64,000 nt of DNA from Pedobacter sp. FW305-3-2-15-E-R2A2 (GCF_038446955.1 NZ_CP151803.1:2976001-3040000); one strand, 5' to 3'. Counted from the first letter of the stretch, positions 29,567 through 44,842 are shown. Notes: generated by a model from the sequence alone, not told the origin. Numbers and translations: made by a program.

Positions 29567-30454
29567 ATGACCAGAAAACTCATCAAAAACTATTTTCATC
29601 TGTTAAACACAGATTATGTCAAACTGGGGGCCAAATGGAACTTCAGCAATGTGATGAGTCCATACTATAGAATATATTACATCGATGAGGGAGAAGGAGT
29701 GATTTCCAGCTTAGCGGGGAATGTAATTTTGAAGCCCGGAAACTTATACCTTATTCCGAGCTTCACCCTTTGCGACCTTTCCTGCAGCCACTTTTTAAGT
29801 CAGTATTTTGTGCAGTTTTTCGAGGAGTCTCCTGATGGCTTATCGCTGTTCGCAAATTGCAGAAAAATCATGCACTTAGCCGCAACACCAATTGACATTG
29901 CAAATATCAACAGGATACTGGCCATAAACCCAGGAAGAGGCATCAACCGGTCTGACGATCCCAAAGTTTATGAAAAAGACATTTACTACAAAGAGTATAC
30001 GGAGCTCAATAATTTACAAAGCGTATCAGCTCAATATGAAACGCAGGGCATTATCTTACAATTAATTTCAAGATTTCTAAAACCCGAGATCTTCAGGCAG
30101 GATAAACTCGCTGTAATTCCCTCGGTAATTCTTGATGCCATAAGTTATATACAGATCAATATCAGTTCGGTATTAAAGGTAAGTTATCTGGCAGACCGTG
30201 CAAACCTGAATACCGATTATTTTTCCAGGATATTCCACCGGTATACCGGAAAAAGTCCGGTTGCCTATATCCTGGAAAAAAGAATAGAGCGTGCACAATA
30301 CCTGATCATCACCACAAACTACCAATATGGCGATATTGCTCAGCTAACGGGCTTTGAAAACTCCCAGTATTTTTCCAGAATTTTCAAACGTTTAACTGGT
30401 CTCACACCGGGAGCATACAGAACACAGAACCAAACAATGAACCTGATCGATTAA
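29567..30454 (+). CDS. AraC-family transcriptional regulator of the fucose operon
   Basis: A 295-residue regulator with an N-terminal cupin-like sensing domain ([32 protein letters not shown]) and a C-terminal double helix-turn-helix: [20 protein letters not shown] and [20 protein letters not shown], closing with TGLTPGAYR. It lies 28 bases after the dehydrogenase gene, and is expected to sense a fucose-type sugar and activate the operon. The tandem 21-bp repeats at 25703-25768 are the obvious binding-site candidate. Its stop codon overlaps that of the convergent oleate hydratase gene within a shared TTAA. Confidence 0.9.
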
Positions 30455-32394
30455 TGGTCTTTTAGCCCTTTCATCCAATCTTTGAATTTGTTGACTTGCT
30501 CCATGATAAAAGACTCATGTTCTTCTTCTCCTTCCGGGCCTGCCGGTAAAATGTGTTCAAAATAAGTTCCTTTCAATACGCTGCGTAAGATACCTTCACC
30601 CAAAAATGGCTTATTGTCATTTAGTGTTTTTGCGGCTTTGAGTAAATGGCGGATATCGTATTGTAAAGGATTAATATCGGGTACCTGTTTATTGAGGTCC
30701 AGCAGTTCATAGACGGCAATCCTGGCTGTCCTTACGGAGCTTTCCATGGTAAATACCACATCATTGTTGGTTTCTACAAACTGTCCGATCAGTCCCAGGT
30801 TTTTGCAACCTTCCGGAACCACTCTTGGACGATCACCTTTTGCCCTCGGCATAAACATAGAAGTAATATAGGGCATGAAAGCCGTGCGGACGATCGTGTG
30901 CTTTACCACATCATCCAACTGATCAATGATGCCCATATGGTAACACAATTCCGCAAGAATCTCATCTCCGGTACATTCAGGCATTACTTTTTTGACCTGA
31001 TTTCCTTCCTTATCCATGAACAGGGCGTACACCCACAGGACTAAAATATCATCTGGTTGTTCCGGGAAATGAGGTTGCCTGTTACAGGTAAAACTCATTA
31101 ACCAATTGGAATCTGTAATGGTCACGATTCCACCGGTAGCTGTTTTTCCGGAATAGGGGTCATTTACACAATATTCCTTTAGTTTTTCAACCAACGCAGA
31201 AGGCCTGCAGGTTAAAGTCACGGATTCCCAGGCCGACTTTTCGATATTGCTGCAGAATTTCTCCGGTTTACCAAAGACAGGTGATTTGGCAGCAAGGTTT
31301 TTCCAGAGCTTCCATCCACCGCTCTTTCCGCTCGTGTTGTTGTCGACAGTGATGACAGGTGCTTTTTTGTTATCCCCATAGAAAGTATCTTCGGTCATCG
31401 AACCAGTGGTCACAATCACATAGTCGTCTTTTCCAACGGGTATTTTAACTTCTTTTCCATTTTGCGTTGTAATGATCCCTTCCACTACTTTTCCCTCGGT
31501 ATTGATATGAATATCCAGGTCATTAATGAGTGTATTAAACTGGATGTTCACCCCTTTGTCTTTTAGGAAATTGCGTAAAGGCGTTACAAAGGTGTCGTAT
31601 TGGTTATATTTAGGGAATACCAGGGACGAAAAGTCATGTAATCCATCAATCGCATGGAGGAACCGGTGCATGTAAAGTTTTAATTCCAGCAGGCTGTGCC
31701 AGTTTTCAAATGCAAACATCGTGCGCCAGTAGGTCCAGAAATCACTGCTCAGGAAGCTTTCACTAAAATAATCTTCAATGGTCAGATCGTCCAGGTCTTC
31801 TTTTTTCTTCAGCAGAAGCTTGATAATAGCCATCTGGTCTTTTTTGTTCAGGCCGAATTTGCTGAAATCTTTTATTACGCCCTGCTGATGGATCAGGCGG
31901 GCTTTGGAGTAATTAGAGTCGTTGTCATTGATTAAACGGTATTCATCCAACACGGTATAGGGAGCCGGCATTTCAAGCGCCGGAATGTCCTGAAATATAT
32001 CCCAAAGGTTTTCATAGGTCATGTCCATTTCCCGGCCACCCCTGATGATATAACCTTCCTTCGCATTACCTGCACCATCCAACGACCCTCCATCGATGTG
32101 CAATTGTTCTAAAAATGTGATGTTTTTCGCGGGCACCTGTCCATCACGAATAAAATAATATGCAGTAGCCATGCCGGCAATACCGCTGCCTATGATATAG
32201 ATTTTACTGTCCTTATAGGATTTACGGGGGATTCCTCTGTTACGTTGATAGTTTCCAATCTGATCCGAAAAGGGCATAGATTTTTGCGGGGTATTGCGTT
32301 GCTGCTCTTTGCTGGAATCAGGTTCATGATTCACATTTCCATCGTTAGGGGAAGTGTTTAATATGTTACTGAATTTAGAGGTGATTGCTTTCAT
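30451..32394 (-). CDS. ohyA: Oleate hydratase (FAD-dependent fatty acid double-bond hydratase)
   Basis: A 647-residue protein of the oleate hydratase / myosin-cross-reactive antigen family; Elizabethkingia enzymes have nearly the same length. The FAD-binding motif is [20 protein letters not shown] near residue 66, and the flavin-loop [17 protein letters not shown] includes Glu122, matching the proposed catalytic position of the Elizabethkingia enzyme. Family members add water to the cis-9 double bond of oleate or linoleate to give 10-hydroxy acids, with FAD in a structural role; they are thought to detoxify unsaturated fatty acids. It is a single-gene unit that converges on the AraC gene. Confidence 0.95.
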
Positions 32395-32606: not shown

Positions 32607-33188
32607 ATGATAGATTATACCGTAATAACTGACCAGGAGCTGGCCAAAATGCTTGCATTAGGGGATCAGACTGCCTTTGCGGAAATCTATAGTCGCTACA
32701 AATTTATCCTTTACAACCATGCCTGGAACAAAACCCGGGATAAACAGGAAGCACAGGATACCTTACAGGAGGTTTTTGCAATGATCTGGTCTAAAAGAGC
32801 AACGATCAATATTGGCAATAATCTTTCCGGTTACCTTTATACCTGTGTTCGAAATCACATCCTAAATGTCATTGTCCGCAGGAACACCCACAATAAATAC
32901 ACCTCTTCGATATTGAAATTTGCGCAAACAGGGCAGGTGCTTACCGATCACCTGATCCGTGAAAATCAATTGAAAGCTTTGATCGACAGGGAGATTGCTG
33001 CACTTCCTCCACGCATGCGTGAGGTATTTGAGCTGAGCAGAAAACAACACCTGAGCCATAAACAGATCGCTGAAATAATGGGTACGAGTGAAGAAACGGT
33101 TAAAAAACAAATGTCCAGAGCGTTAAAATCACTACGCTTAAAGTTAGGGCTTCCCGTTTTCATCCTCATGCTGTTGTTTTACCGGTAA
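32607..33188 (+). CDS. ECF-type RNA polymerase sigma factor (locus 3)
   Basis: A 193-residue ECF sigma factor. The start chosen is ATG 32607 (MIDYTVITDQEL) with the GGGG-containing site AGTAGGGG just before it; the frame also opens at a TTG 18 bases earlier. Region 2 spans about 20-80 (FAEIYSRYKFILYNHAWNKT; AQDTLQEVFAMIWSKRA), region 4 about 130-180 (LPPRMREVFELSRKQHLSHK; MGTSEETVKKQMSRALKSL). The C-terminal hydrophobic tail GLPVFILMLLFYR is common in SusC-linked sigma factors of Bacteroidota. Its anti-sigma factor is not next to it: an ABC transporter lies between the two. Two identical-spacing promoter candidates flank that transporter. Confidence 0.93.
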   Translation: MIDYTVITDQELAKMLALGDQTAFAEIYSRYKFILYNHAWNKTRDKQEAQDTLQEVFAMIWSKRATINIGNNLSGYLYTCVRNHILNVIVRRNTHNKYTSSILKFAQTGQVLTDHLIRENQLKALIDREIAALPPRMREVFELSRKQHLSHKQIAEIMGTSEETVKKQMSRALKSLRLKLGLPVFILMLLFYR

Positions 33189-33207: not shown

Positions 33208-33241
33208 TGTACCACCCCGGCCATCCTTAGTTTGTCTAACT
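33208..33241 (+). promoter_or_regulatory. Candidate ECF promoter before the ABC transporter (locus 3), copy 1
   Basis: TGTACCAC at 33208-33215, a 16-base gap, then TTGTCTAACT at 33232-33241. The same words with the same gap recur before FecR at 36465-36498. The ATPase start codon lies 16 bases downstream. Confidence 0.72.
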
Positions 33242-33256
33242 GCCAGACTAAACTAA

Positions 33257-34195
33257 ATGATGACAACCAGTATTGTAAAAATCGAAAACCTTTCCCACCG
33301 CTACAGTCTTGACTGGGCCATACGGGATATTAATTTTGAGATCAGCCCAAGAGGAGTCCTCGGGTTGCTGGGCTCTAACGGCGCAGGAAAATCGACTACG
33401 ATGAACATTCTTTGCGGGGTACTCAACCAAACGGAAGGAAATGTGTTCATTGATGGGATCGACACCAGACTGCATCCCGAACAGGCGAAACGAAAACTTG
33501 GATTTCTTCCCCAGCATGCTCCTTTACACCTCGACCTGAATGTCGATGAGTACCTGACCTATTGTGCCCACATCCGGGACGTTCCCGCAAAAAAGGTGCG
33601 AATGGCAGTCGCAGAAGTGAAAAATAAATGCGGCATCAGCCATTTCAGTAAACGCCTGCTGAGCAACCTTTCCGGAGGCTATAAACAACGGGTCGGCATT
33701 GCACAGGCAATTATTCATCATCCGCTCCTGGTGGTACTGGATGAGCCTACCAACGGGCTCGATCCCAACCAGATTCTGGAGGTACGGAAACTGATCAAAG
33801 AAATCTCTGAAGAGCGCTCGGTGCTCTTTTCCACGCATATCCTCTCGGAAGTGCAGGCCACCTGTAAGGAAATCAGAATGATAGAAGGCGGGCGAATGGT
33901 CTTTGCCGATACCATGGAAGCCTTTAACAATTACATCATGCCAAATTCTGTGCTGATCTACCTGGACAATCCTCCATCCATGGAGACCCTCAGTCGCCTT
34001 CCGGACATTACGAGTGCCGAAGCGCTCAGCGACGGTGGTTTAAGACTCCATTTTAAGGGCTCCCAAAAGAACATTTCGGCAAAGATCATTGAAGCCAGTA
34101 TCAGCAATGGCTGGCAGCTCAGCGAGATTATGCTCGAGAAAAGCTCCCTTGACGAAATATTCGCCCAACTTTCCAACCATAAAAAGCCAGTATAA
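33257..34195 (+). CDS. ABC transporter ATP-binding protein, GldA-like
   Basis: A 312-residue ABC ATPase: Walker A GSNGAGKST (39-47), signature LSGGYKQR (138-145), Walker B LVVLDEP (158-164) with D-loop NGLDP, and a switch histidine in LFSTHIL. The C-terminal 90 residues resemble the extension found in GldA and drug-exporter ATPases. Together with the next gene it gives a complete GldA/GldF/GldG-like system. In Flavobacterium, GldAFG is needed for gliding and is thought to act in secretion or cell-surface assembly. Here it is inserted between a sigma factor and its anti-sigma gene and has the same promoter element as the latter. The first two codons are both ATG. Confidence 0.9.
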   Translation: MMTTSIVKIENLSHRYSLDWAIRDINFEISPRGVLGLLGSNGAGKSTTMNILCGVLNQTEGNVFIDGIDTRLHPEQAKRKLGFLPQHAPLHLDLNVDEYLTYCAHIRDVPAKKVRMAVAEVKNKCGISHFSKRLLSNLSGGYKQRVGIAQAIIHHPLLVVLDEPTNGLDPNQILEVRKLIKEISEERSVLFSTHILSEVQATCKEIRMIEGGRMVFADTMEAFNNYIMPNSVLIYLDNPPSMETLSRLPDITSAEALSDGGLRLHFKGSQKNISAKIIEASISNGWQLSEIMLEKSSLDEIFAQLSNHKKPV

Positions 34196-34199
34196 GCGC

Positions 34200-36452
34200 A
34201 TGAAGAAAATACTAAAAATCGCAAAATTAGAACTCAGCATCTTATTCTTTGCACCCGTAGCCTGGCTGGTCCTGATCATCTTTTTCCTGCAGAGTGGCAA
34301 CCGCTTTCTGGGCCTGTTTGGCAGTTACCAGGAGGCCATATCCATGGGCAATCAGGTTACTGACCTGAGTTTCGCCATGTTCCCGGGTACAGGCGGCCTT
34401 TTCGAACAAACCTTGCAGAACATTTACTTTTACATCCCCTTACTCAGCATGGGGCTGATGAGCCGGGAAATCAGTAGTGGCTCCATTAAATTATTGCTTT
34501 CTTCGCCCGTTACTGTTAAAGAAATCATTTTCGGGAAATACCTGGCCATAACTCTATATGGTTTCTTATTGGTCATGATATTGCTGGTATATGCGCTTAC
34601 CGGTGGGGTCTTGATCCGCAATGCAGATTATGGATTGATCGGATCGGGCCTTCTGGCTTTATTCCTCCTCATTTGTACTTATGCGGCAATCGGACTTTTC
34701 ATGTCCAGCCTTACCGGTTATCAGGTGGTTGCAGCGATCAGTACATTGGCTGTATTTGCAGCCTTACAATACGTAGGAAGTGTTGGCCAGGATATTGATT
34801 TTGTAAGGGATTTCACTTATTTCCTTTCCATTTCGGGTAGAACGGACGACCTGCTGAAGGGACTCATCAGCAGCAGGGATGTGATCTATTTTCTCCTTAT
34901 TATTGGCTTATTCCTTTCGCTCTCCATTCTGCGGCTGAAAGCGGCCAGATCTCCTCAGTCTGCCGGTATGTTGTTGATGAAATACACAGGCATTGTTACA
35001 GCGGCACTTTTGATGATTTACCTCAGCTCGAGGCCACAGTTCATTTGGTATAAAGACCTGACCGCAAATAAGGTCCGCACACTGACGCCCAATAGTCAGG
35101 CGGTTGCAAAGCAGATCAAGGGCGATTTGAGCATCACAACCTATGTGAATCTGCTGGATCAAAATGTTTATGCCGGCCTGCCGGTCTCCAGAAATCTGGA
35201 TATGTCCAGGTTCGATGCTTACCGCAGGTATATTCCGGGCCTGAAGATGAAGTACGTTTATTATTACGACATCACTGATCTTAAAAACAATAGAAACATG
35301 GTCTACCAGGGCGATCTGACAGGTTTGACCGTAAAACAGGTGGCAGAAAAAGTGGCCGATAATATGGGACTGGAGGTCAATGATTTCCTGTCTCCGGCCG
35401 ACATCCGTAAGCGCATTGACCTGCGAAGCGAAGACAATAATTTTATTCGTATCCTGGAATACCAGGGAAGAACGAGTAAGTTGAGGCTGTACGATGAAAT
35501 GGATGCCTTTCCTTTAGAAACAGAAATCACGGCAGCCATAAAACGCCTGATCGTTCCGGCACCGCGAATCGGAGTCATCACCGGACACAACGAACGCAGT
35601 ATTTTGAAAACAGGAGAACGCAATTATGAATCCTTCCTCAACGCAAAAAAAGTAAGGCGCTCGCTGATCAATCAGGGTTTTGAAGTGGCTGCGGTCACAC
35701 TGGATTCCGGTTCGGTTCCAGTTGGTCTGAGCCTGCTGATCCTGGCAGATCCGGCTACGACATTAAAGCCTGCTGAACTCACGGCATTAAAATCGTATAT
35801 TGACAATGGAGGCAACCTGATGATCACTACAGAACCCGGACAGCAACAACTGATCAACCCGATATTAAAATGGGTTGATATCCGGTTAAAGGAAGGCGCC
35901 CTGGTGATGCCGAGTAACGACAATCTGCCAGACCAGGTGATCGCAACAACCTTCAGGGAAGGAATGCCGGTGGCGATGCCAGGGGTATCCGCATTGCAAT
36001 ATGACAACAGCGGAGCTTTCCTTGCCGATACCTTACTGGTGAGTGCTGCCAATGGCTGGAACAAACAGGGCGAGCTGGCCAAAGGGGCGACTGAGATTTC
36101 CTATCGTCCGGATCAGGGAGATGTCAAAGGAAGTTACCCAACAGCTATCGCACTCCACCGGACGATCAAAGGGAAAATGCAAAAGATCTTGGTATCCGGA
36201 GATGCCGATTTTATGTCTAATAAAGAGTTGAGCCAGCCAAAAGGAATGAATCAAAGGTTCAGTACTACTGTGTTCAAATGGTTTGTCAACGGGGAGTTTC
36301 CGGTAGATACCCGGCGCCCCGAACCTAAAGACAATGAAATTTTGCTTAAAAAACGACAGATTTCAACGCTCAAGTTGGTGTTTACAGGTTTAATTCCTTT
36401 ATTAATCGGCCTTCTGGGGGCCTACATCATCATCAGCAGGAAAAGAAAATAA
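34200..36452 (+). CDS. Fused GldF-like permease and GldG-like substrate-binding protein
   Basis: A 750-residue protein starting at ATG 34200; the longer open frame runs back inside the ATPase gene. Residues 1-235 form an ABC-2 permease with six membrane segments (IAKLELSILFFAPVAWLVLI; GLMSREISSGSIKLLLSSPV). A further helix at about 265 leads into an extracytoplasmic GldG/DUF4350-like region (SLLILADPATTLKPAELTAL; LKSYIDNGGNLMI) and a C-terminal helix (LVFTGLIPLLIGLLGAYIII). GldF and GldG are separate genes in the gliding literature known to me; here one chain carries both. It starts 4 bases after the ATPase stop. Confidence 0.88.
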   Translation: MKKILKIAKLELSILFFAPVAWLVLIIFFLQSGNRFLGLFGSYQEAISMGNQVTDLSFAMFPGTGGLFEQTLQNIYFYIPLLSMGLMSREISSGSIKLLLSSPVTVKEIIFGKYLAITLYGFLLVMILLVYALTGGVLIRNADYGLIGSGLLALFLLICTYAAIGLFMSSLTGYQVVAAISTLAVFAALQYVGSVGQDIDFVRDFTYFLSISGRTDDLLKGLISSRDVIYFLLIIGLFLSLSILRLKAARSPQSAGMLLMKYTGIVTAALLMIYLSSRPQFIWYKDLTANKVRTLTPNSQAVAKQIKGDLSITTYVNLLDQNVYAGLPVSRNLDMSRFDAYRRYIPGLKMKYVYYYDITDLKNNRNMVYQGDLTGLTVKQVAEKVADNMGLEVNDFLSPADIRKRIDLRSEDNNFIRILEYQGRTSKLRLYDEMDAFPLETEITAAIKRLIVPAPRIGVITGHNERSILKTGERNYESFLNAKKVRRSLINQGFEVAAVTLDSGSVPVGLSLLILADPATTLKPAELTALKSYIDNGGNLMITTEPGQQQLINPILKWVDIRLKEGALVMPSNDNLPDQVIATTFREGMPVAMPGVSALQYDNSGAFLADTLLVSAANGWNKQGELAKGATEISYRPDQGDVKGSYPTAIALHRTIKGKMQKILVSGDADFMSNKELSQPKGMNQRFSTTVFKWFVNGEFPVDTRRPEPKDNEILLKKRQISTLKLVFTGLIPLLIGLLGAYIIISRKRK

Positions 36453-36464
36453 ATTTTATTCCCA

Positions 36465-36498
36465 TGTACCACTTTGATAGCCACTATATTGTCTAACT
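36465..36498 (+). promoter_or_regulatory. Candidate ECF promoter before FecR (locus 3), copy 2
   Basis: TGTACCAC at 36465-36472, 16 bases, TTGTCTAACT at 36489-36498, identical in both words and in spacing to the copy at 33208. CCA is also conserved inside the spacer. The FecR start codon is 28 bases downstream. Confidence 0.72.
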
Positions 36499-36525: not shown

Positions 36526-37650
36526 ATGACAGAGGAAGAATTACAGCAAATACTAAAAAGGTACAGCGAGGGCAAGGCAACCGAACAGGAAAAAGCATTG
36601 CTCGAAAGCTGGTATCTGAATTACAATAGCGACCATTCCGAACAGGCTCAAATGCCCGAGTTGCTGGAAGCGGTGGATAGGGTATGGGCAAACGTAAATC
36701 CGATTACGGTAGTGGCCAGGCAGCTTTCCTTGTTTGCAAAATTGAGCATCGCTGCTGCGGTTCTTTTAATTTTGTCTTTTGGTACCTGGTTTATCCTGCA
36801 AAAACAGGAACCGGCAGTATTTGAGCTGAGTGTTGCTAAAGATATTGCCCCTGGACAGAACAAGGCGACGCTTACGCTCGCTTCCGGCAGGAAAATCATT
36901 TTGGCGGAGACTGCAGTCGGCGAGATTCTCAGGGAACCAGGGGGGCTCAGCATCAGTCATACCAAATCGGGAGAACTGATCTATACCTCAAAGGCAACCG
37001 GGAAACAGACAGCCGGCGCAGCATGGAATACACTCGAAACCTTTAAAGGGGAGCAACATCAGCTGATGCTTCCGGATGGTTCTCATGTCTGGCTGAATGC
37101 AGCTTCTTCCATTACCTTTCCTGATTCATTTTCAGCTACGCGGGAAGTGTCGGTCAGCGGTGAAGTGTATTTTGAAGTCGCCCATGACCCATCGAGGCCG
37201 TTTATCGTAAAAAGTAAGGGGCAGCGGGTCGAGGTATTGGGGACACATTTTAACATCAACGTTTATCCGGATGAACTTTCAGGTAAGACAACCTTGCTGG
37301 AGGGTGCGGTCAGGATCAGTACTGATGCCAACGGTTCCAGCCTGCTGAAACCAGGAGAACAGGCCAGTCTGACTGCCGGAAAGATCAGGGTTGCCAAAGT
37401 ATCCACGGATGAAGTCATCGCCTGGAAGAACGGTTATTTCATGTTTGAAAGCGAAGACATCCGCTCGGTGATGAGAAAAATATCGAGGTGGTATAACGTA
37501 GAGGTGGTCTATGAGGGAGAAGTCCCTCAGGATACCTTTGGCGGTACAATTGACCGTTTTGCCAAAGTCTCCCAGGTCCTTAAAAAATTACAACTGACCG
37601 ATAAGGTCCATTTCAAAGTAGAAGGAAGGAGGATTATCGTTACGAAATAA
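36526..37650 (+). CDS. FecR-family anti-sigma factor (locus 3)
   Basis: A 374-residue FecR homologue with a cytoplasmic helical N-terminus (ILKRYSEGKATEQEKALLES), one membrane helix near 70-88 (LSIAAAVLLILSFGTWFIL), and a periplasmic FecR domain: LPDGSHVWLNAASSITFPDS, REVSVSGEVYFEVAHDPSRP, VLGTHFNINVYPDELSG and LLKPGEQASLTAGK. The DUF4974-like C-terminus is complete. It should regulate the sigma factor at 32607, although 3.3 kb of ABC transporter genes separate the two. It lies 190 bases before the SusC start. Confidence 0.94.
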   Translation: MTEEELQQILKRYSEGKATEQEKALLESWYLNYNSDHSEQAQMPELLEAVDRVWANVNPITVVARQLSLFAKLSIAAAVLLILSFGTWFILQKQEPAVFELSVAKDIAPGQNKATLTLASGRKIILAETAVGEILREPGGLSISHTKSGELIYTSKATGKQTAGAAWNTLETFKGEQHQLMLPDGSHVWLNAASSITFPDSFSATREVSVSGEVYFEVAHDPSRPFIVKSKGQRVEVLGTHFNINVYPDELSGKTTLLEGAVRISTDANGSSLLKPGEQASLTAGKIRVAKVSTDEVIAWKNGYFMFESEDIRSVMRKISRWYNVEVVYEGEVPQDTFGGTIDRFAKVSQVLKKLQLTDKVHFKVEGRRIIVTK

Positions 37651-37841
37651 CAAATCCCGCGATGATCCATAAAAAAGGCCAGAAGTGCTTGCAACACAAC
37701 CGGCCAAATGACTGGATCATTTACATACAATTTGCGATTCTATTCCATAAACCAGACAAACAAACTTAGACATTATTGCCCGATAAAGCAATAAGAATGG
37801 TCCTTCATCGGCCACTGGGTTTTTGTCACAAACAAGATGAA

Positions 37842-40800
37842 ATGTATAAAACCTATACTTATAAACTATTGTTCATGATGCGACTCACCACCGTCATTTT
37901 AATAGCAACCATAATGCAGGTCAGTGCTGCGGGCTTTGCCCAGAAGATTACACTGTCTGAAAAGAAAGCGAACCTGAAATCCCTTTTTAAGGAGATTCGC
38001 AGGCAAAGCCAGTATAATTTCCTGTATACCGATGCACAGCTGGCCAGTACAAAGCCAATTGACATTAAGGTCAGTAACATGGAACTTAAAGCAGTCCTGG
38101 ACCTGATCTTTCGCGATCAGCCACTGACCTATACCGTGGATGAAAACACAATCGTAGTCAGTGAAAGGAAGTTGTCGCTGATCGACAAAATCAGTGAATA
38201 CCTGCGTGCCATCGACCTGAGCGGACAAGTGCTCAACGAAGCGGGATACCCCATGCTTGGAGCAATCGTACGGGTAGGGGGAACGAAAAAAGTAACCAGT
38301 ACCGATGTGGAAGGTAAGTTTTTTCTGAAAGATGTGGACCCGCAGGGAACGCTGATCATCTCCTATGTCGGTTATCGTACAGATACCATCGCCATTGCCG
38401 GAAAAACGAGAATTAATGTGAAAATGGACCCTCAGCTCAATCAGATCCAGGAGGTTCGTATTGTGTCTACAGGTTACCAGGATTTACCGAGAGAACGGGC
38501 AACAGGCTCATTTGAGTCGATCAGTAAAGTACAGTTACAGCACAGTACCGATCCAAACCTGATCCGCAGACTGGAAGGAATCACGACCGCTATGGATTTC
38601 AGAAATGACCTCAGACCCATAAATTCCAGTAATCCCAACGCACAACGCTCACCCTTGGTAAACCTCACCATCAGGGGAAAGAACACCCTTAACGAAAATG
38701 AAAATGCAGACCTGAACGGGAACTTCAGCGGCCAGGTGTTGGTGGTGATCGATGGGATTGCCAGCCCGTATTCTATCGATAAGGTAAACCCCAATGATGT
38801 GGAAAGCGTTACGATCCTTAAAGATGCTGCTGCGGCTTCGATCTGGGGATCCCGTGCCGCCAATGGAGTGATTGTGATCAAGACAAAAAAAGGAGGATAC
38901 AACAGCAAACTCAGGGTATCGCTGAGCAGTAACCTGAACGTTACGGAAAAGATTGACCTGTTCTATAATAAAACAATGCGGATCGGGGATTTTGTGGAAG
39001 CACAGAAATTACAGTTTCTAAATGCCAATAAACCTCTTCCGGCGGTCAGCATTAGCAGTCTGTACGGACAGGAAACGGTTTCGCCGGTGGCGGAGATCCT
39101 GGATGCCTGGAAATTCAAAGGGCTGAGTACGGAACAGGAAGCAATGGCGCAACTGGAAGCACTTAAAAACAACGACATCAGACGAGACTATACCAAATAC
39201 TTTTTGCGCAATGCGCTGACTCAGAGTCATGCACTTGCCATCGATGCCGGTTCGGAAAAATTTAATTACCGCATATCAGGTGGCTACGACAAATCCATCA
39301 ACAATACCCGGAATTCCGGACTGGACCGGATCGTGCTGACGTACAGTGCCTCAGCCCGGCCGCTAAAAAACCTGGAATTTCAGGGGAATATCAGTTACAA
39401 TGTCCAGAACAATGAAGAACAGGCCGAGGAAAACCGGATCAGTGGGGTAGCGAACAGCACATTTTTCCCTTATTCCCGATTGGCGGATGACCAGGGCAAT
39501 CCACTCGAGTTGACCAAAACTTACCGGCCGGGTTTCATAGATCTTTTCGAAAGTACTTATACCGGAGGCCAGTTTTTAAGCTGGAGGTATAAACCCCTGG
39601 AAGACATCAACGAAGGTTACAATACGCTTAAATCACAAAACCTGAACCTGAATTTCAGCAGTACCTATCAGCTGTTGGAGGGGCTGTCCCTGCAGGCCAC
39701 TTATAATTACAATACCGGTAGAAATGAGGACAATTCGCTGTATCGGCAGAATTCATTCTATATGCGGAACCTGATCAATTATTTCACGACTTCGCTGGCT
39801 TCCACAGATCCTAAAACGGGCAATCCGGTAACGCCGTATGTGCGTCAGATCCCTCTGGGCGGACAATACACGACCGGTCTTACCAAATCGAACAACCAAA
39901 CCTTAAGGGGTCAACTGAACCTGAACAAAAGCTGGAGCGAAAAACATGAAATCTCGGCCATTGCCGGTATAGATCTGGCGCAAAACTACAGCATCCTCAA
40001 AACCGATGGTTATTATGGCTACAATGAAAGTACACTGAGAAGCGATAACAGGCTGGATTATAAAACAATGATCCCTATTATTTTTGCGGAAGATTTTAGC
40101 GGTTATAATGGAGAGTACATTGCAAACCTGTCCAGGGGCTTTCTGGACAACAAAATCCGGACCTTCAGTTGGTATGCCAATGCGGCGTATACTTTCAATA
40201 GAAGATATACCTTTTCGGCAAGCGTCAGAAAAGACCTTTCCAGCGAATTTGGCAGGGGGACGAACCAAAAAGGAACGCCTTACTATTCTGTTGGTGGAAG
40301 CTGGAACATTGCTGCCGAACCTTTTTACCATTCGGAGCTTTTTCCGGTGCTGACTTTCCGCTCTACATTTGGTTATAACGGAAACGTGAACCCATCCATA
40401 CTGGCGCGTCCGCTGATTACTTATTCTGATGTGAATGGCGACAATGACCTGCCTTATGCCTATACCAGTTATGGAACAGGAATCTCCAACAGCAAACTAC
40501 GACCGGAGAAAACAGGAATCTGGAACATTGGTTTGGATTTCGGACTGAAAGGAAACCGGTTGTCTGGAAGTTTGCAATACTATAACAAAAAGACCACTGA
40601 CCTGTTGGCCAATGGCGAACTGGATCCGAGTACGGGTTATACCAACATCACGTATAACACCGGAAACCTGCGGGGTTACGGAATAGACCTGAGCCTGAAT
40701 TCCCTGAATGTGCAAAGCGGACTTTTCAAATGGAACAGCAATTTGTTATTCAGCTATAATAAAGTGAAGGTGACCAAACTTTATGCAGCTACGGCAAGTC

Positions 40801-41516
40801 TTGCAGGAGCCGTGGTTTCTAACAGCAGTGGCTCCTATAATGAAGGCTATGACTTGTCGCGCGTGTTTGGTTACAAATGGGCAGGACTGGATCCTAAAAC
40901 CGGTGATCCCAGAGGTTATCTTGATGGTGCAATCGTGACGATCGCAGATAACGCGGAAGGAAATGCTGCTTACCAGGGCATTCAAAATGGAGCACTTAGC
41001 TCAGTAAAGTACTTCGGTTCGGCAGTACCGGTATATTATGGTGCCTTTCGCAATACCTTCAGCTACGGGAATTTTTCGGTTTCCGCAAACCTGATGTATA
41101 AACTGGGTTATTACTTCCGCAGACCTGCTTCGCAAATCGTAAACTATAGCCAGCTGAACAGCAATATTCCGCTGATTCAGGGCATCGAATACCAGAACAG
41201 GTGGCAAAAGGCCGGAGATGAGCTAAATACCAATGTGCCTTCCGCGATTTTTACCTCCAGCAATCAGAACCGCGACAATTTCTACAAGTACGCGGAGATC
41301 AATGTGCTTAAAGGTGACCATATCCGCCTGCAGGAACTTAACTTTTCTTACACCATTACGCCTGGAAAAAGCTGGTTTATTAAAAATCCCAGGATTTCTG
41401 CTAACGTAAATAACCTGGGGATCATTTGGAAAGCAAACGATCAGGGTATAGATCCCGAAGTCTTCGATTATCCCAATCCAAGATCTTACAGCTTTGGTTT
41501 TTCTGCTAACTTTTAA
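37842..41516 (+). CDS. SusC/RagA-family TonB-dependent outer-membrane transporter with STN domain (locus 3)
   Basis: A 1224-residue transporter. The start chosen is ATG 37842 (MYKTYTYKLLFMMRLTTVIL), the usual Sphingobacteriaceae SusC opening; the frame opens 66 bases earlier at a TTG. After a signal peptide ending GFAQ come an STN domain (ITLSEKKANLKSLFKEIRRQ onwards), a carboxypeptidase-regulatory-like domain (LSGQVLNEAGYPMLGAIVRV), the plug with STGYQDLPRERATGSF and VTILKDAAAASIWGSRAANG, and the barrel. The plug is of the same subgroup as locus 1. There the SusD is followed by thioredoxins and a protease; here those genes are absent and an ABC transporter lies upstream instead. Confidence 0.95.
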   Translation: MYKTYTYKLLFMMRLTTVILIATIMQVSAAGFAQKITLSEKKANLKSLFKEIRRQSQYNFLYTDAQLASTKPIDIKVSNMELKAVLDLIFRDQPLTYTVDENTIVVSERKLSLIDKISEYLRAIDLSGQVLNEAGYPMLGAIVRVGGTKKVTSTDVEGKFFLKDVDPQGTLIISYVGYRTDTIAIAGKTRINVKMDPQLNQIQEVRIVSTGYQDLPRERATGSFESISKVQLQHSTDPNLIRRLEGITTAMDFRNDLRPINSSNPNAQRSPLVNLTIRGKNTLNENENADLNGNFSGQVLVVIDGIASPYSIDKVNPNDVESVTILKDAAAASIWGSRAANGVIVIKTKKGGYNSKLRVSLSSNLNVTEKIDLFYNKTMRIGDFVEAQKLQFLNANKPLPAVSISSLYGQETVSPVAEILDAWKFKGLSTEQEAMAQLEALKNNDIRRDYTKYFLRNALTQSHALAIDAGSEKFNYRISGGYDKSINNTRNSGLDRIVLTYSASARPLKNLEFQGNISYNVQNNEEQAEENRISGVANSTFFPYSRLADDQGNPLELTKTYRPGFIDLFESTYTGGQFLSWRYKPLEDINEGYNTLKSQNLNLNFSSTYQLLEGLSLQATYNYNTGRNEDNSLYRQNSFYMRNLINYFTTSLASTDPKTGNPVTPYVRQIPLGGQYTTGLTKSNNQTLRGQLNLNKSWSEKHEISAIAGIDLAQNYSILKTDGYYGYNESTLRSDNRLDYKTMIPIIFAEDFSGYNGEYIANLSRGFLDNKIRTFSWYANAAYTFNRRYTFSASVRKDLSSEFGRGTNQKGTPYYSVGGSWNIAAEPFYHSELFPVLTFRSTFGYNGNVNPSILARPLITYSDVNGDNDLPYAYTSYGTGISNSKLRPEKTGIWNIGLDFGLKGNRLSGSLQYYNKKTTDLLANGELDPSTGYTNITYNTGNLRGYGIDLSLNSLNVQSGLFKWNSNLLFSYNKVKVTKLYAATASLAGAVVSNSSGSYNEGYDLSRVFGYKWAGLDPKTGDPRGYLDGAIVTIADNAEGNAAYQGIQNGALSSVKYFGSAVPVYYGAFRNTFSYGNFSVSANLMYKLGYYFRRPASQIVNYSQLNSNIPLIQGIEYQNRWQKAGDELNTNVPSAIFTSSNQNRDNFYKYAEINVLKGDHIRLQELNFSYTITPGKSWFIKNPRISANVNNLGIIWKANDQGIDPEVFDYPNPRSYSFGFSANF

Positions 41517-41528
41517 CTGTTGACTATC

Positions 41529-42929
41529 ATGAAAATAAACAGACTTATATTTTTGCTCTCTGCACTTGGTATCCTGGTCTCTTCCTGTCAAAAATATGTT
41601 GACATTAAGAAAAGTGGGGCACAATCGTTTATAGAGTCAGCGAACGATTGCCAGTTGCTGATGGACAATTATGAATTGTTCAATACCGGATATCCGATAG
41701 ATGGAGAGGTTTCTGCCGATGATTACTATATGAACGATGCCAGATTTGGTTCGGACCAGATCAGTATCGAAGACCGGACGATTTATACCTGGCAATCCGG
41801 AGCCATCAGAACTGCTTCACAGCAATGGGTAGACATCTACAATAAGGTCTATCATGCGAATTTGGTACTGGAAGCCGTACAGGAGCTCAATGGCAAAGAA
41901 CAACCTGCCGTACTGAATAATTTAAGGGGCAGCGCCTTGTTTTTAAGGGCTTATGCCTTTTGGAATCTCGCACAGTTGTATACAAAAACCTATGATGCTG
42001 CTACGGCTCAGAGCGATCCCGGAATCCCTATCGACCTCAGTTCAGACATCAATGACGCGCCTGGCAGAGGAACGGTTCAGGAAACTTATAACCGCATTGT
42101 TCAGGACCTGACTGAGGCTGCAGGCCTGATGAACCCGGTTTCTTCTGTGGCCTCACGCCCTAACAAAGCGGCTGCATATGCCATGCTGGCGAGGGTGTAC
42201 CTTTCCATGAGGGATTATCCGAATGCGTTAAGCAGCGCTAATGCTGCATTGACGTTGCGGAATACGCTGATCAATTTCAATACGCTGGACAAGGGATCAT
42301 TCTCACCTTTCAGAAGGTTCAATGAAGAGGTCATTTTTCACTCCACCTTGTACAGTAAAAACGGTTCATTAGAGCCGGGTTATGGTTATGAAGACCTGGC
42401 CATCATCAATCCGGAGCTGGTCTCTTCCTATGCGGCTAATGACCTCAGGAAGACCATCCTGCTGAAGGAAAACACCGATGTTCCCGTACCTGCAGGAACC
42501 TATAGGTTTACCGGGAATTATGAGGGGGCGGTAGCTTCGGCAAAACTTTTTAACGGGCTTGCAGTGGATGAACTCTACCTCATCCGGGCAGAATGTTATG
42601 CAAGGGCAGGCAATATGGGCTCAGCGATGGGCGACCTGAATACTTTGCTGCGCAGCAGATGGACCGAAGGTGCTTTTACAAACCTGGAGGCCGGTAATGC
42701 CGACAATGCCTTGTCCATCATTCTGGCTGAACGACGTAAAGAATTGTTGATGCGTGGCCAGCGCTGGACGGACCTGCGCAGGTTAAACAAGGATCCCAAA
42801 TCTGCTGCAACCCTAAGCAGGACGGTTCAGGGAATCACGCATACGCTGCCTGCAAATGACCTGCGGTATACCTTACTCATCCCGCAGGAAGTGATCATGA
42901 AATCGAAACTCCAGCAGAATCAACGATAG
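41529..42929 (+). CDS. SusD/RagB-family surface lipoprotein (locus 3)
   Basis: A 466-residue SusD homologue; the start is ATG 41529 (MKINRLIFLLSALGILVSSC) with lipobox VSSC at Cys20. SusD blocks seen are LRGSALFLRAYAFWNLAQLY, KAAAYAMLARVYLSMRDYPN, ELYLIRAECYARAGNMGSAM and the C-terminal ERRKELLMRGQRWTDLRRLN. It is close in size and pattern to the SusD of locus 1. It starts 12 bases after SusC. Nothing belonging to the uptake operon follows; the next gene is a toxin-antitoxin-like unit 275 bases on. Confidence 0.93.
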   Translation: MKINRLIFLLSALGILVSSCQKYVDIKKSGAQSFIESANDCQLLMDNYELFNTGYPIDGEVSADDYYMNDARFGSDQISIEDRTIYTWQSGAIRTASQQWVDIYNKVYHANLVLEAVQELNGKEQPAVLNNLRGSALFLRAYAFWNLAQLYTKTYDAATAQSDPGIPIDLSSDINDAPGRGTVQETYNRIVQDLTEAAGLMNPVSSVASRPNKAAAYAMLARVYLSMRDYPNALSSANAALTLRNTLINFNTLDKGSFSPFRRFNEEVIFHSTLYSKNGSLEPGYGYEDLAIINPELVSSYAANDLRKTILLKENTDVPVPAGTYRFTGNYEGAVASAKLFNGLAVDELYLIRAECYARAGNMGSAMGDLNTLLRSRWTEGAFTNLEAGNADNALSIILAERRKELLMRGQRWTDLRRLNKDPKSAATLSRTVQGITHTLPANDLRYTLLIPQEVIMKSKLQQNQR

Positions 42930-43204: not shown

Positions 43205-44335
43205 ATGGGAACAGAAATCAATATCAATCCGACTATGCTTACCTGGGCGATTATAAGAGCAGGATATGTCCTTGGAGATTTTTTGGAGAAGTTCCCAAAT
43301 GTAAAAAAGTGGATTGAAAAAGCTAAAAGTCCAACCGTTAAGCAATTAGAGGATTTTTCCCGGCGTGTTCACATTCCTTTTGGTTATTTATTTCTCCAGG
43401 AACCACCTAAAGAGCAAATTCCTTTTCCTTTTTTTAGAACCGGTAACCATCAAACTAACCAGGTTAGTTTAAATGTTTACGATACTATTTTAATATTACA
43501 ACGCAGGCAGGATTGGCTTATTGATTATTTATTAGATAATGATGGAAGCGCACTTCCTTTTGTAGGTAAATTTGATCATAACGCAAGCTTTGAAGCCATT
43601 GTTGAGGATATTAGAAATACTTTAAATCTAGATCCTGAATGGGCTAATGATTGTCAAACCTTTGAGGACACATTAAACTTCATCACTAAAAAAATTGAGG
43701 AAGTTGGCATTATGATTAATTTCAATGGTGTCGTTGAGAATAATACCCATAGGGTAATTCCTGTTAATGAATGTAGAGGGTTTGTTTTAGTGAATAAAAT
43801 GGCCCCTTTTATGTTTGTAAATGCTGCTGATGCTAAAGCTGCTCAGCTATTTACTATTATTCATGAACTTGCTCATATTTGGTTAGGTGAAAGCGCCGGA
43901 TTTGATAACCAAAATTTATTACCGGCAAACAATCCCGTGGAAAGGTTATGCGACCAGGTAGCTGCAGAATTTTTAGTTCCCGCTATTTCTTTCCATAAAC
44001 GCTGGGCTAACAGTGCTGATATTAACAAATTGGCTAAATATTTTAAAGTTAGCTCAATTGTCATCGCCAGGCGAGCCTTAGATTTAGGCAAAATGAATAA
44101 AGCTGCGTTCTTTCAGTTTTATAATCAATATATGGAAGGGGTTCGGATAAAAAAGGAAGGTCAGGGAAGCGGAGGTGATTTCTATGCTACTGCCAGGAAA
44201 CGAATAAGTGTAAGTTTCGCTGCATATGTAGATCAAGCTGTTAGACAGAACAAGCTTTTATATCGGGATGCCTATAAGATTACAGGATTGAGAGGAGATA
44301 CTTATCAAACTTTTGTGACTAAACATATTTTCTAA
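43205..44335 (+). CDS. XRE-type / ImmA-IrrE metallopeptidase-domain protein (antitoxin-like, COG2856)
   Basis: A 376-residue cytoplasmic protein. The first 75 residues resemble an XRE helix-turn-helix (MLTWAIIRAGYVLGDFLEKF; SPTVKQLEDFSRRVHIPFGY), followed by LFLQEPPKEQIPFPFFRT, a linker typical of this architecture. The ImmA/IrrE zinc-peptidase domain has HELAH at 220-224 and a downstream glutamate, Glu255, in CDQVAAEFLVP. XRE-COG2856 proteins next to DUF4411 genes have been predicted as toxin-antitoxin pairs, and that partner follows after 9 bases. The gene is visibly richer in A+T than its neighbours, suggesting acquisition by transfer. It could alternatively regulate by proteolysis of a repressor. 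Confidence 0.88.
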   Translation: MGTEININPTMLTWAIIRAGYVLGDFLEKFPNVKKWIEKAKSPTVKQLEDFSRRVHIPFGYLFLQEPPKEQIPFPFFRTGNHQTNQVSLNVYDTILILQRRQDWLIDYLLDNDGSALPFVGKFDHNASFEAIVEDIRNTLNLDPEWANDCQTFEDTLNFITKKIEEVGIMINFNGVVENNTHRVIPVNECRGFVLVNKMAPFMFVNAADAKAAQLFTIIHELAHIWLGESAGFDNQNLLPANNPVERLCDQVAAEFLVPAISFHKRWANSADINKLAKYFKVSSIVIARRALDLGKMNKAAFFQFYNQYMEGVRIKKEGQGSGGDFYATARKRISVSFAAYVDQAVRQNKLLYRDAYKITGLRGDTYQTFVTKHIF

Positions 44336-44344
44336 TTATAACCA

Positions 44345-44842
44345 ATGGCAGCTCCTTTCGTTTTAGATAGTAACTTTTTTATTCAAGCTCATAGAATGCA
44401 TTATCCAATGGATGTCGTGCCGCGTTTTTGGTTGAAAATTACTGAATTAGCGGAAAAAGAATTAATCGTTTCTATCGATAAAGTAAGAGATGAGCTGCAT
44501 TTAAATAAGGACGGTTTGACATTATGGTGCGACGAGAATTTGCCAAAAGATTTCTTTAAAGACACTGATCCTATTATACATGAGTATGTTGTTGTTTCAA
44601 ATTGGGTGAACTCAAAATCTGGTCACTATAATTTAGCGGCTTTAAATGAATTTTTAGATTCAAATGAAGCAGATGCGTGGTTAGTTGCCTATTCCCTGGC
44701 AAATGGAAGCGAAATCGTTACTCATGAGACAAGAGAGCCTAACAGAAAGAGTAAGGTTAAAATTCCGGATGTATGCTTGCCATTTGGAATAAACTGCGTT
44801 AATACTATTGAAATGTTTAGATCATTAACTGAACAATTCTAA
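44345..44842 (+). CDS. DUF4411 PIN-like putative RNase toxin
   Basis: A 165-residue protein of the DUF4411 family, thought to have a PIN-like nuclease fold. The N-terminal FVLDSNFFIQAHRMHYPMDV contains the first acidic residue (Asp8). Later acidic positions typical of the fold are seen in SIDKVRDELHL and SNEADAWLVAYSLANG, followed by VTHETREPNRKSKVKIPDVC. PIN toxins cleave RNA with a metal-binding acidic cluster. It follows the COG2856 gene by 9 bases, and shares its A+T-rich composition, so the pair is probably a single acquired unit. Confidence 0.88.
   Translation: MAAPFVLDSNFFIQAHRMHYPMDVVPRFWLKITELAEKELIVSIDKVRDELHLNKDGLTLWCDENLPKDFFKDTDPIIHEYVVVSNWVNSKSGHYNLAALNEFLDSNEADAWLVAYSLANGSEIVTHETREPNRKSKVKIPDVCLPFGINCVNTIEMFRSLTEQF

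Follow-up and report, generated by a model that had tools for sequence, protein, structure and literature searches.

The locus described here raises the question of whether an ABC transporter encoded between an ECF sigma factor and its FecR-type regulator is expressed together with the SusC/SusD uptake pair further downstream. The stretch of DNA analysed, referred to as the window, is 64,000 nucleotides long and corresponds to positions 2,976,001-3,040,000 of a Pedobacter chromosome of 7,588,365 bp (7.59 Mb, one contig). An earlier note, made from the sequence alone, had proposed that a word pair occurring twice in the locus represents promoters of the local sigma factor, and that substrate sensing would thus switch on the transporter as well as the uptake pair.

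The gene assignments of that note were borne out by Pfam and NCBIfam searches. All genes of the locus lie on the plus strand in the order sigma, ABC ATPase, GldF-GldG-like permease, FecR, SusC and SusD. The sigma factor (32607-33188) is of the FecI-like Bacteroidota type (TIGR02985 Sig70_bacteroi1, 132.6 bits against a cut-off of 126.4) and contains both regions 2 and 4, with Sigma70_r2 and r4_2 above their cut-offs. The GldA-like ATPase (33257-34195; PF00005, 105.6 bits) has intact Walker A (GSNGAGKS), signature (LSGGYKQR) and Walker B motifs, and the fused permease (34200-36452; PF09822, PF12679) consists of a GldF-like ABC-2 membrane domain, a periplasmic GldG/IFT52-like (GIFT) domain and a C-terminal membrane helix. 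The FecR-type anti-sigma factor or sigma regulator (36526-37650; PF04773 70.1 bits and PF16344 74.2 bits, both over their cut-offs) shows one membrane helix by hydropathy, at residues 62-80. The SusC/RagA TonB-dependent receptor (37842-41516; TIGR04056, 515.8 bits against 368.25) carries a CarbopepD_reg_2 domain and an N-terminal STN signalling domain (PF07660, residues 60-109 of the translation used, 35.1 bits against 28.4), and is followed by a SusD-like surface lipoprotein (41529-42929; PF14322 105.1 bits, PF07980 43.6 bits). The regulated unit thus comprises the ABC genes, fecR, susC and susD only. We found no carbohydrate-active enzymes in its gene content by Pfam, and despite the SusC/SusD pair the locus was rejected as a polysaccharide utilization locus. 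Directly behind SusD (43205-44842), an M78 peptidase/antitoxin-like gene and a DUF4411 gene look like a toxin-antitoxin type pair. On the other side, an oleate hydratase gene (30451-32394, minus strand; PRK13977, 805.6 bits) is divergent to the sigma gene; the promoter words do not occur in its vicinity.

The word pair TGTACCAC-N16-TTGTCTAACT was indeed found twice, exactly at the coordinates given earlier. The predicted promoter copy 1 (33208-33241, TGTACCACCCCGGCCATCCTTAGTTTGTCTAACT) lies upstream of the ABC ATPase gene and the predicted copy 2 (36465-36498, TGTACCACTTTGATAGCCACTATATTGTCTAACT) upstream of fecR, both on the plus strand and with the same words, of which TGTACCAC is -35-like and TTGTCTAACT is -10-like. 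Allowing gaps of 14-18 bases, a search of the window returned positions 33208 and 36465 only, with a gap of 16 at both, whereas shuffled sequence gives a chance expectation of 0.00 for TGTACCAC..TTGTCTAACT. Pattern searches of the complete genome (7,588,365 bp) found two perfect matches, both in the locus, the next best match having two mismatches; at up to three mismatches there were 6 matches against 9 for a reversed-pattern control. With the relaxed pattern TACCWC-N15..17-TTGTCTWAC, the genome again contained two matches, both in the locus, and the control none. Many unrelated copies across the genome would have spoken against the earlier proposal, and the genome-wide search did not find them. 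The spacers of the two sites are unrelated in sequence, and the sites are therefore not the product of a simple recent duplication. No copy of the site was found ahead of the sigma gene's own start.

The function of the sites was judged from a comparison of related loci, which the earlier note had called for. P. steynii DSM 19110 and P. hiemivivus contain the locus (L037, L038) at 92% identity. We identified 10 further Pedobacter loci (L135-L144) with the gene order of the window, and all 11 loci have paired sites, one ahead of the ATPase gene and one ahead of fecR. The sites have the form TACC[T/A]C[C]-N-TTGTCT[T/A]AC with a box-to-box distance of 21-22. An ungapped comparison of the best 34/36 bases in the intergenic spacers was powerless against A/T runs and was replaced by a held-out matrix and a box-versus-spacer test. 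Trained without the locus under test and without its close relatives, the matrix ranked the two sites first and second in 11/11 loci (both strands, 14.5-64 kb); in the window, copy 1 came first (20.9 bits) and copy 2 second (19.7 bits), the next non-site scoring 9.8.

The words are also specific to one group of sigma factors. Scanning 144 Pedobacter genomes with TACCWC-N14..17-TTGTCTWACT gave 19 matches, against 5 for the reversed control. Thirteen of these fall in the ABC loci, four lie between a sigma gene and its fecR, one lies between a sigma gene and the start of an ATPase gene that is cut off by the end of the contig, and the remaining one, in coding DNA, is a chance match. Four sigma-fecR sister loci have exactly one site each, between sigma and FecR, and no ABC transporter of this kind within the 15.5 kb examined. 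The sigma factors paired with these words, the window sigma among them, group in a single clade (support 100/97), and the consensus for the clade is TACC[T/A]C[C]-N15/16-[C]TTGTCT[T/A]AC. L120, a further locus with a sigma of this clade, has only one related site, which follows the sigma gene, and its ABC genes come after SusD. In loci with the ABC genes behind SusD, we found no second site, and joint control there would thus rest on read-through.

These patterns bear on a first alternative, that the paired words are operators of an activator or repressor other than the local sigma factor, or promoters used mainly by another sigma. The genome does encode additional ECF sigma factors, including two within the window. 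However, the two other ECF sigma loci of the window are without these words, the words go with the sigma clade and are located without exception just after that clade's sigma gene, and no other regulator gene is common to the 11 loci. ECF promoters typically consist of two boxes separated by 15-17 bases, with a GTC in the downstream box, and the sites have this layout. We consider this alternative improbable.

A second alternative, somewhat less probable still, is that only copy 2 matters, copy 1 being a relic of the ancestral sigma-fecR promoter that stayed in place upon insertion of the ABC genes. Copy 1 is in the ancestral place, as the single site of the sister loci comes directly after the sigma gene, and in L138 and L139 it matches less well than copy 2. 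Against this, none of the 11 loci has lost copy 1, whereas the spacers have been randomised, and in the window group it scores slightly above copy 2. Within loci, the boxes of sites 1 and 2 are 84% identical (22 columns) and their spacers 30% (12 columns), and the boxes are conserved even though permease identity among the loci is only 54-69%. The locus-specific box variants are, moreover, mostly shared by both sites. These include TACTACC in L139, TACCTCT in L141, CCTGTCT in L144 and TACCAC/TTGTCTAACT in the window group; in each of L139, L141 and L144, a private or rare variant is present at both sites. An exact permutation test, run on nine loci with all 362,880 pairings and making no correction for their relatedness, gave a sum of matches of 166 for the boxes in comparison with 153 expected (p=0.0008); for the spacers it gave p=0.58. 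A recent, functionless duplication or gene conversion could produce two identical words of 8 and 10 bases, but near-random spacers beside boxes held alike across such diverged loci make this explanation next to negligible.

The reading that we favour, with a probability of about 0.84, is that the two sites are promoter copies of the local ECF sigma factor. The earlier proposal to this effect is supported by the comparison, through the pairs in 11/11 loci, the joint drift of the boxes, the match to a sigma clade and the one-site sister loci. If the sites are the cognate promoters of the local sigma, the ABC transporter belongs to the SusC/SusD regulon, and the second part of the proposal, that it is switched on with the uptake pair, follows from the promoter assignment. 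Copy 1 would then drive the two ABC genes and copy 2 fecR, susC and susD. As the sigma gene is without such a site, the sigma factor would be produced in some other way and kept in check by FecR. In the FecA/FecR family, the signal is established to pass from the STN domain to FecR. By analogy, ligand at SusC/SusD would act through the STN domain of SusC on FecR and free the sigma factor, which would raise both units together, its own brake FecR included; with fecR inside the regulated unit, negative feedback would be expected. The ABC transporter would then be part of the ligand-handling programme, handling or clearing something linked to the SusC/SusD cargo. The distance from the permease stop to site 2 is about 7-20 nt in most loci, making read-through from copy 1 into fecR likely. 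The ABC unit and the fecR unit may thus not be separate transcripts, and copy 2 probably adds output for fecR-susC-susD.

To place the transporter, permease homologues were collected regardless of their neighbours, and 73 of the loci were of sufficient length for assessment. Each of the 73 has a same-strand ATPase; SusC and SusD were each found in 69, FecR in 52 and sigma in 48. The commonest order in Bacteroidota is sigma, FecR, SusC, SusD, (DUF4843, PKD-like), ATPase and permease, often followed by M16 peptidases or pairs of MutS-like ATPases. In the Sphingobacteriaceae genera other than Pedobacter, the ABC genes come after SusD in the loci seen, one locus having too short a flank. The remark in the earlier note that the arrangement was not a known one therefore holds for the position between sigma and anti-sigma, which is rare; it does not hold for an ABC transporter beside SusC/SusD, which is widespread, usually behind SusD.

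The transporter is homologous to, and yet different from, the gliding transporter GldAFG, as its parts score well below the equivalog cut-offs: 263.1 against 402.6 bits for GldA (TIGR03522, the best NCBIfam match of the ATPase), 87.4 against 288.5 for GldF and 28.8 against 389.85 for GldG. With all three so far below, we rejected an assignment as GldAFG. It shares with GldAFG of gliding flavobacteria a homologous ATPase, an ABC-2 permease and a GldG-type periplasmic domain, but its GldF and GldG parts are fused and it is linked to SusC/SusD, whereas GldAFG is linked to gliding genes. An AlphaFold2 model of the permease (28 sequences; mean pLDDT 81, pTM 0.77) was compared with known structures by Foldseek. 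The membrane domain matched NosY of NosDFY (E 1.4e-4, TM to target 0.72) and PmtCD (E 0.02-0.03), and the periplasmic domain matched IFT52. The likeness to NosDFY and the peptide exporter PmtCD is thus in the permease fold of a predicted model; identities are only ~14-20%, and the periplasmic partners and the gene context are different. Judged from this model, the transporter is a predicted type-V ABC system, exporter-like or force-transmitting, and unlike the importer FecBCDE. M16 peptidases adjoin the ABC genes in relatives, and in L141-L143 they lie directly behind SusD; the window's locus itself contains no peptidase. Because of these M16 neighbours and the PmtCD match, a peptide is a fair guess for the cargo and the one we think likeliest.

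The neighbourhoods of the homologues contain further recurring genes. In roughly one locus out of three, the genes directly behind the SusC/SusD-linked ABC transporter encode proteins of ~445 aa with MutS domains III and V, paired or fused (L046:12445-15128, L093:12316-14974, L153:10368-13040). Genes for DUF4843, a PKD-like lipoprotein and M16 peptidases also recur (L085:6578-8942, L116:10231-12491, L048:12317-15142), which suggests a peptide-handling programme. L153 is a second ABC locus in the genome that contains the window (4,043,000-4,062,000), and consists of SusC, SusD, a DUF4397-like lipoprotein, ATPase, permease, MutS fusion, M16, a second permease and a fatty acid hydroxylase. Six Bacteroides loci (L062, L063, L066, L067, L087, L104) have two tandem ATPase-permease pairs ahead of SusC-SusD-DUF4843-PKD and no sigma or FecR nearby; the link between the ABC transporter and SusC/SusD persists there under some other control.

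The position between sigma and FecR is not confined to Pedobacter. Tandem ABC pairs occupy it in Sanguibacteroides (L047) and Butyricimonas (L056, L057), and sites of the form ATTCATCCTTT..GTGTTCTG (also given as ATTCATCC..GTGTTC) precede both the first ATPase and FecR, with one Sanguibacteroides copy ending in GTGTTCTC. The sigma factors of these loci form a clade of their own (100/99), and the putative promoter words, compared across loci, track the sigma phylogeny. A permease tree groups the 11 Pedobacter rows together (98 SH-aLRT), inside a set of loci with the transporter behind SusD, and places the Bacteroidales rows elsewhere; the position between sigma and FecR has thus arisen at least twice. 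In many Bacteroidota sigma-FecR spacers (e.g., L039, L049, L050, L070, L120), we also observed TACC followed ~18 bases later by a GTC box, with words differing by sigma. Control of FecR by its own sigma factor may be general in the phylum.

The spacer between fecR and susC contains an additional conserved structure. The element (37664-37764; listed as a feature at 37664-37735, with no strand assigned) is a nested stem with inner GGCCAGAAGTGCTTGCAACACAACYGGCC and outer GATCCA/TGGATC, kept in 11/11 loci and unique in the genome of the window. The outer stem covaries, with compensatory changes among the 11 loci, and the minus-strand fold has an energy of -24.9 kcal/mol (z -3.6). In the minus-strand reading, a T-run comes after the inner hairpin and is spanned by the pairing of the outer stem, and TTTG-N-TANNATC is found upstream in most loci. 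Changes in the inner stem (window, L137, L139) favour the minus strand, while one outer-stem change (L140) favours the plus strand. An Rfam search of the window gave no matches. The element is a candidate mRNA element, or may represent a DonS-like RNA antisense to the susC leader.

The regulatory logic proposed here is already known from the fec paradigm. In E. coli, a FecI-type sigma co-controls a TonB-dependent receptor and an ABC transporter, and fecIR form one operon that is outside FecI control and not autoregulated (PMC9249621). The window locus resembles FecIRA and FecBCDE in its FecI-like sigma, its FecR, its TonB-dependent receptor with a signalling domain and the ABC transporter in the predicted regulon, and its sigma gene is also without sign of autoregulation. 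It differs in that fecR is within the regulated unit and the ABC genes are between sigma and fecR with a predicted promoter copy of their own; the E. coli transporter is a binding-protein importer encoded behind fecA, whereas that of the window is predicted to be a type-V exporter-like pump. Host-glycan utilization loci of Bacteroides likewise combine an ECF sigma, a FecR-type anti-sigma and SusC/SusD in one locus (PMC11697453, PMC12596196), but the window unit is without glycan-degrading enzymes and has an ABC transporter inside. Our literature search found no description of a SusC/SusD-linked ABC system, which is not proof of absence. Within the literature searched, the kind of transporter, its phylum-wide pairing with SusC/SusD and the move of its genes to a place between sigma and FecR, together with a predicted second promoter, are new. 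More tentatively, and at slightly less than even odds, SusC/SusD pairs across Bacteroidota would have a dedicated GldAFG-like type-V ABC partner with a periplasmic GIFT domain, often accompanied by M16 peptidases or MutS-like ATPase pairs and locked to SusC/SusD expression by ECF promoters copied at rearrangement, the two possibly forming one trans-envelope peptide-handling device.

The set of predicted cognate sigma-promoter pairs is likewise new within the literature searched, in a phylum with very few. B. thetaiotaomicron has 50 ECF sigmas (PMC12596196), and a transcriptome paper of 2020 knew of no motif for any alternative ECF sigma there (PMC7366714). Dozens of ECF sigma factors are linked to SusC/SusD in Bacteroidota and very few of their promoters are known; the comparison yields cognate sigma-promoter pairs and a rule that can be read from sequence, with the sites just after the sigma gene and one per unit.
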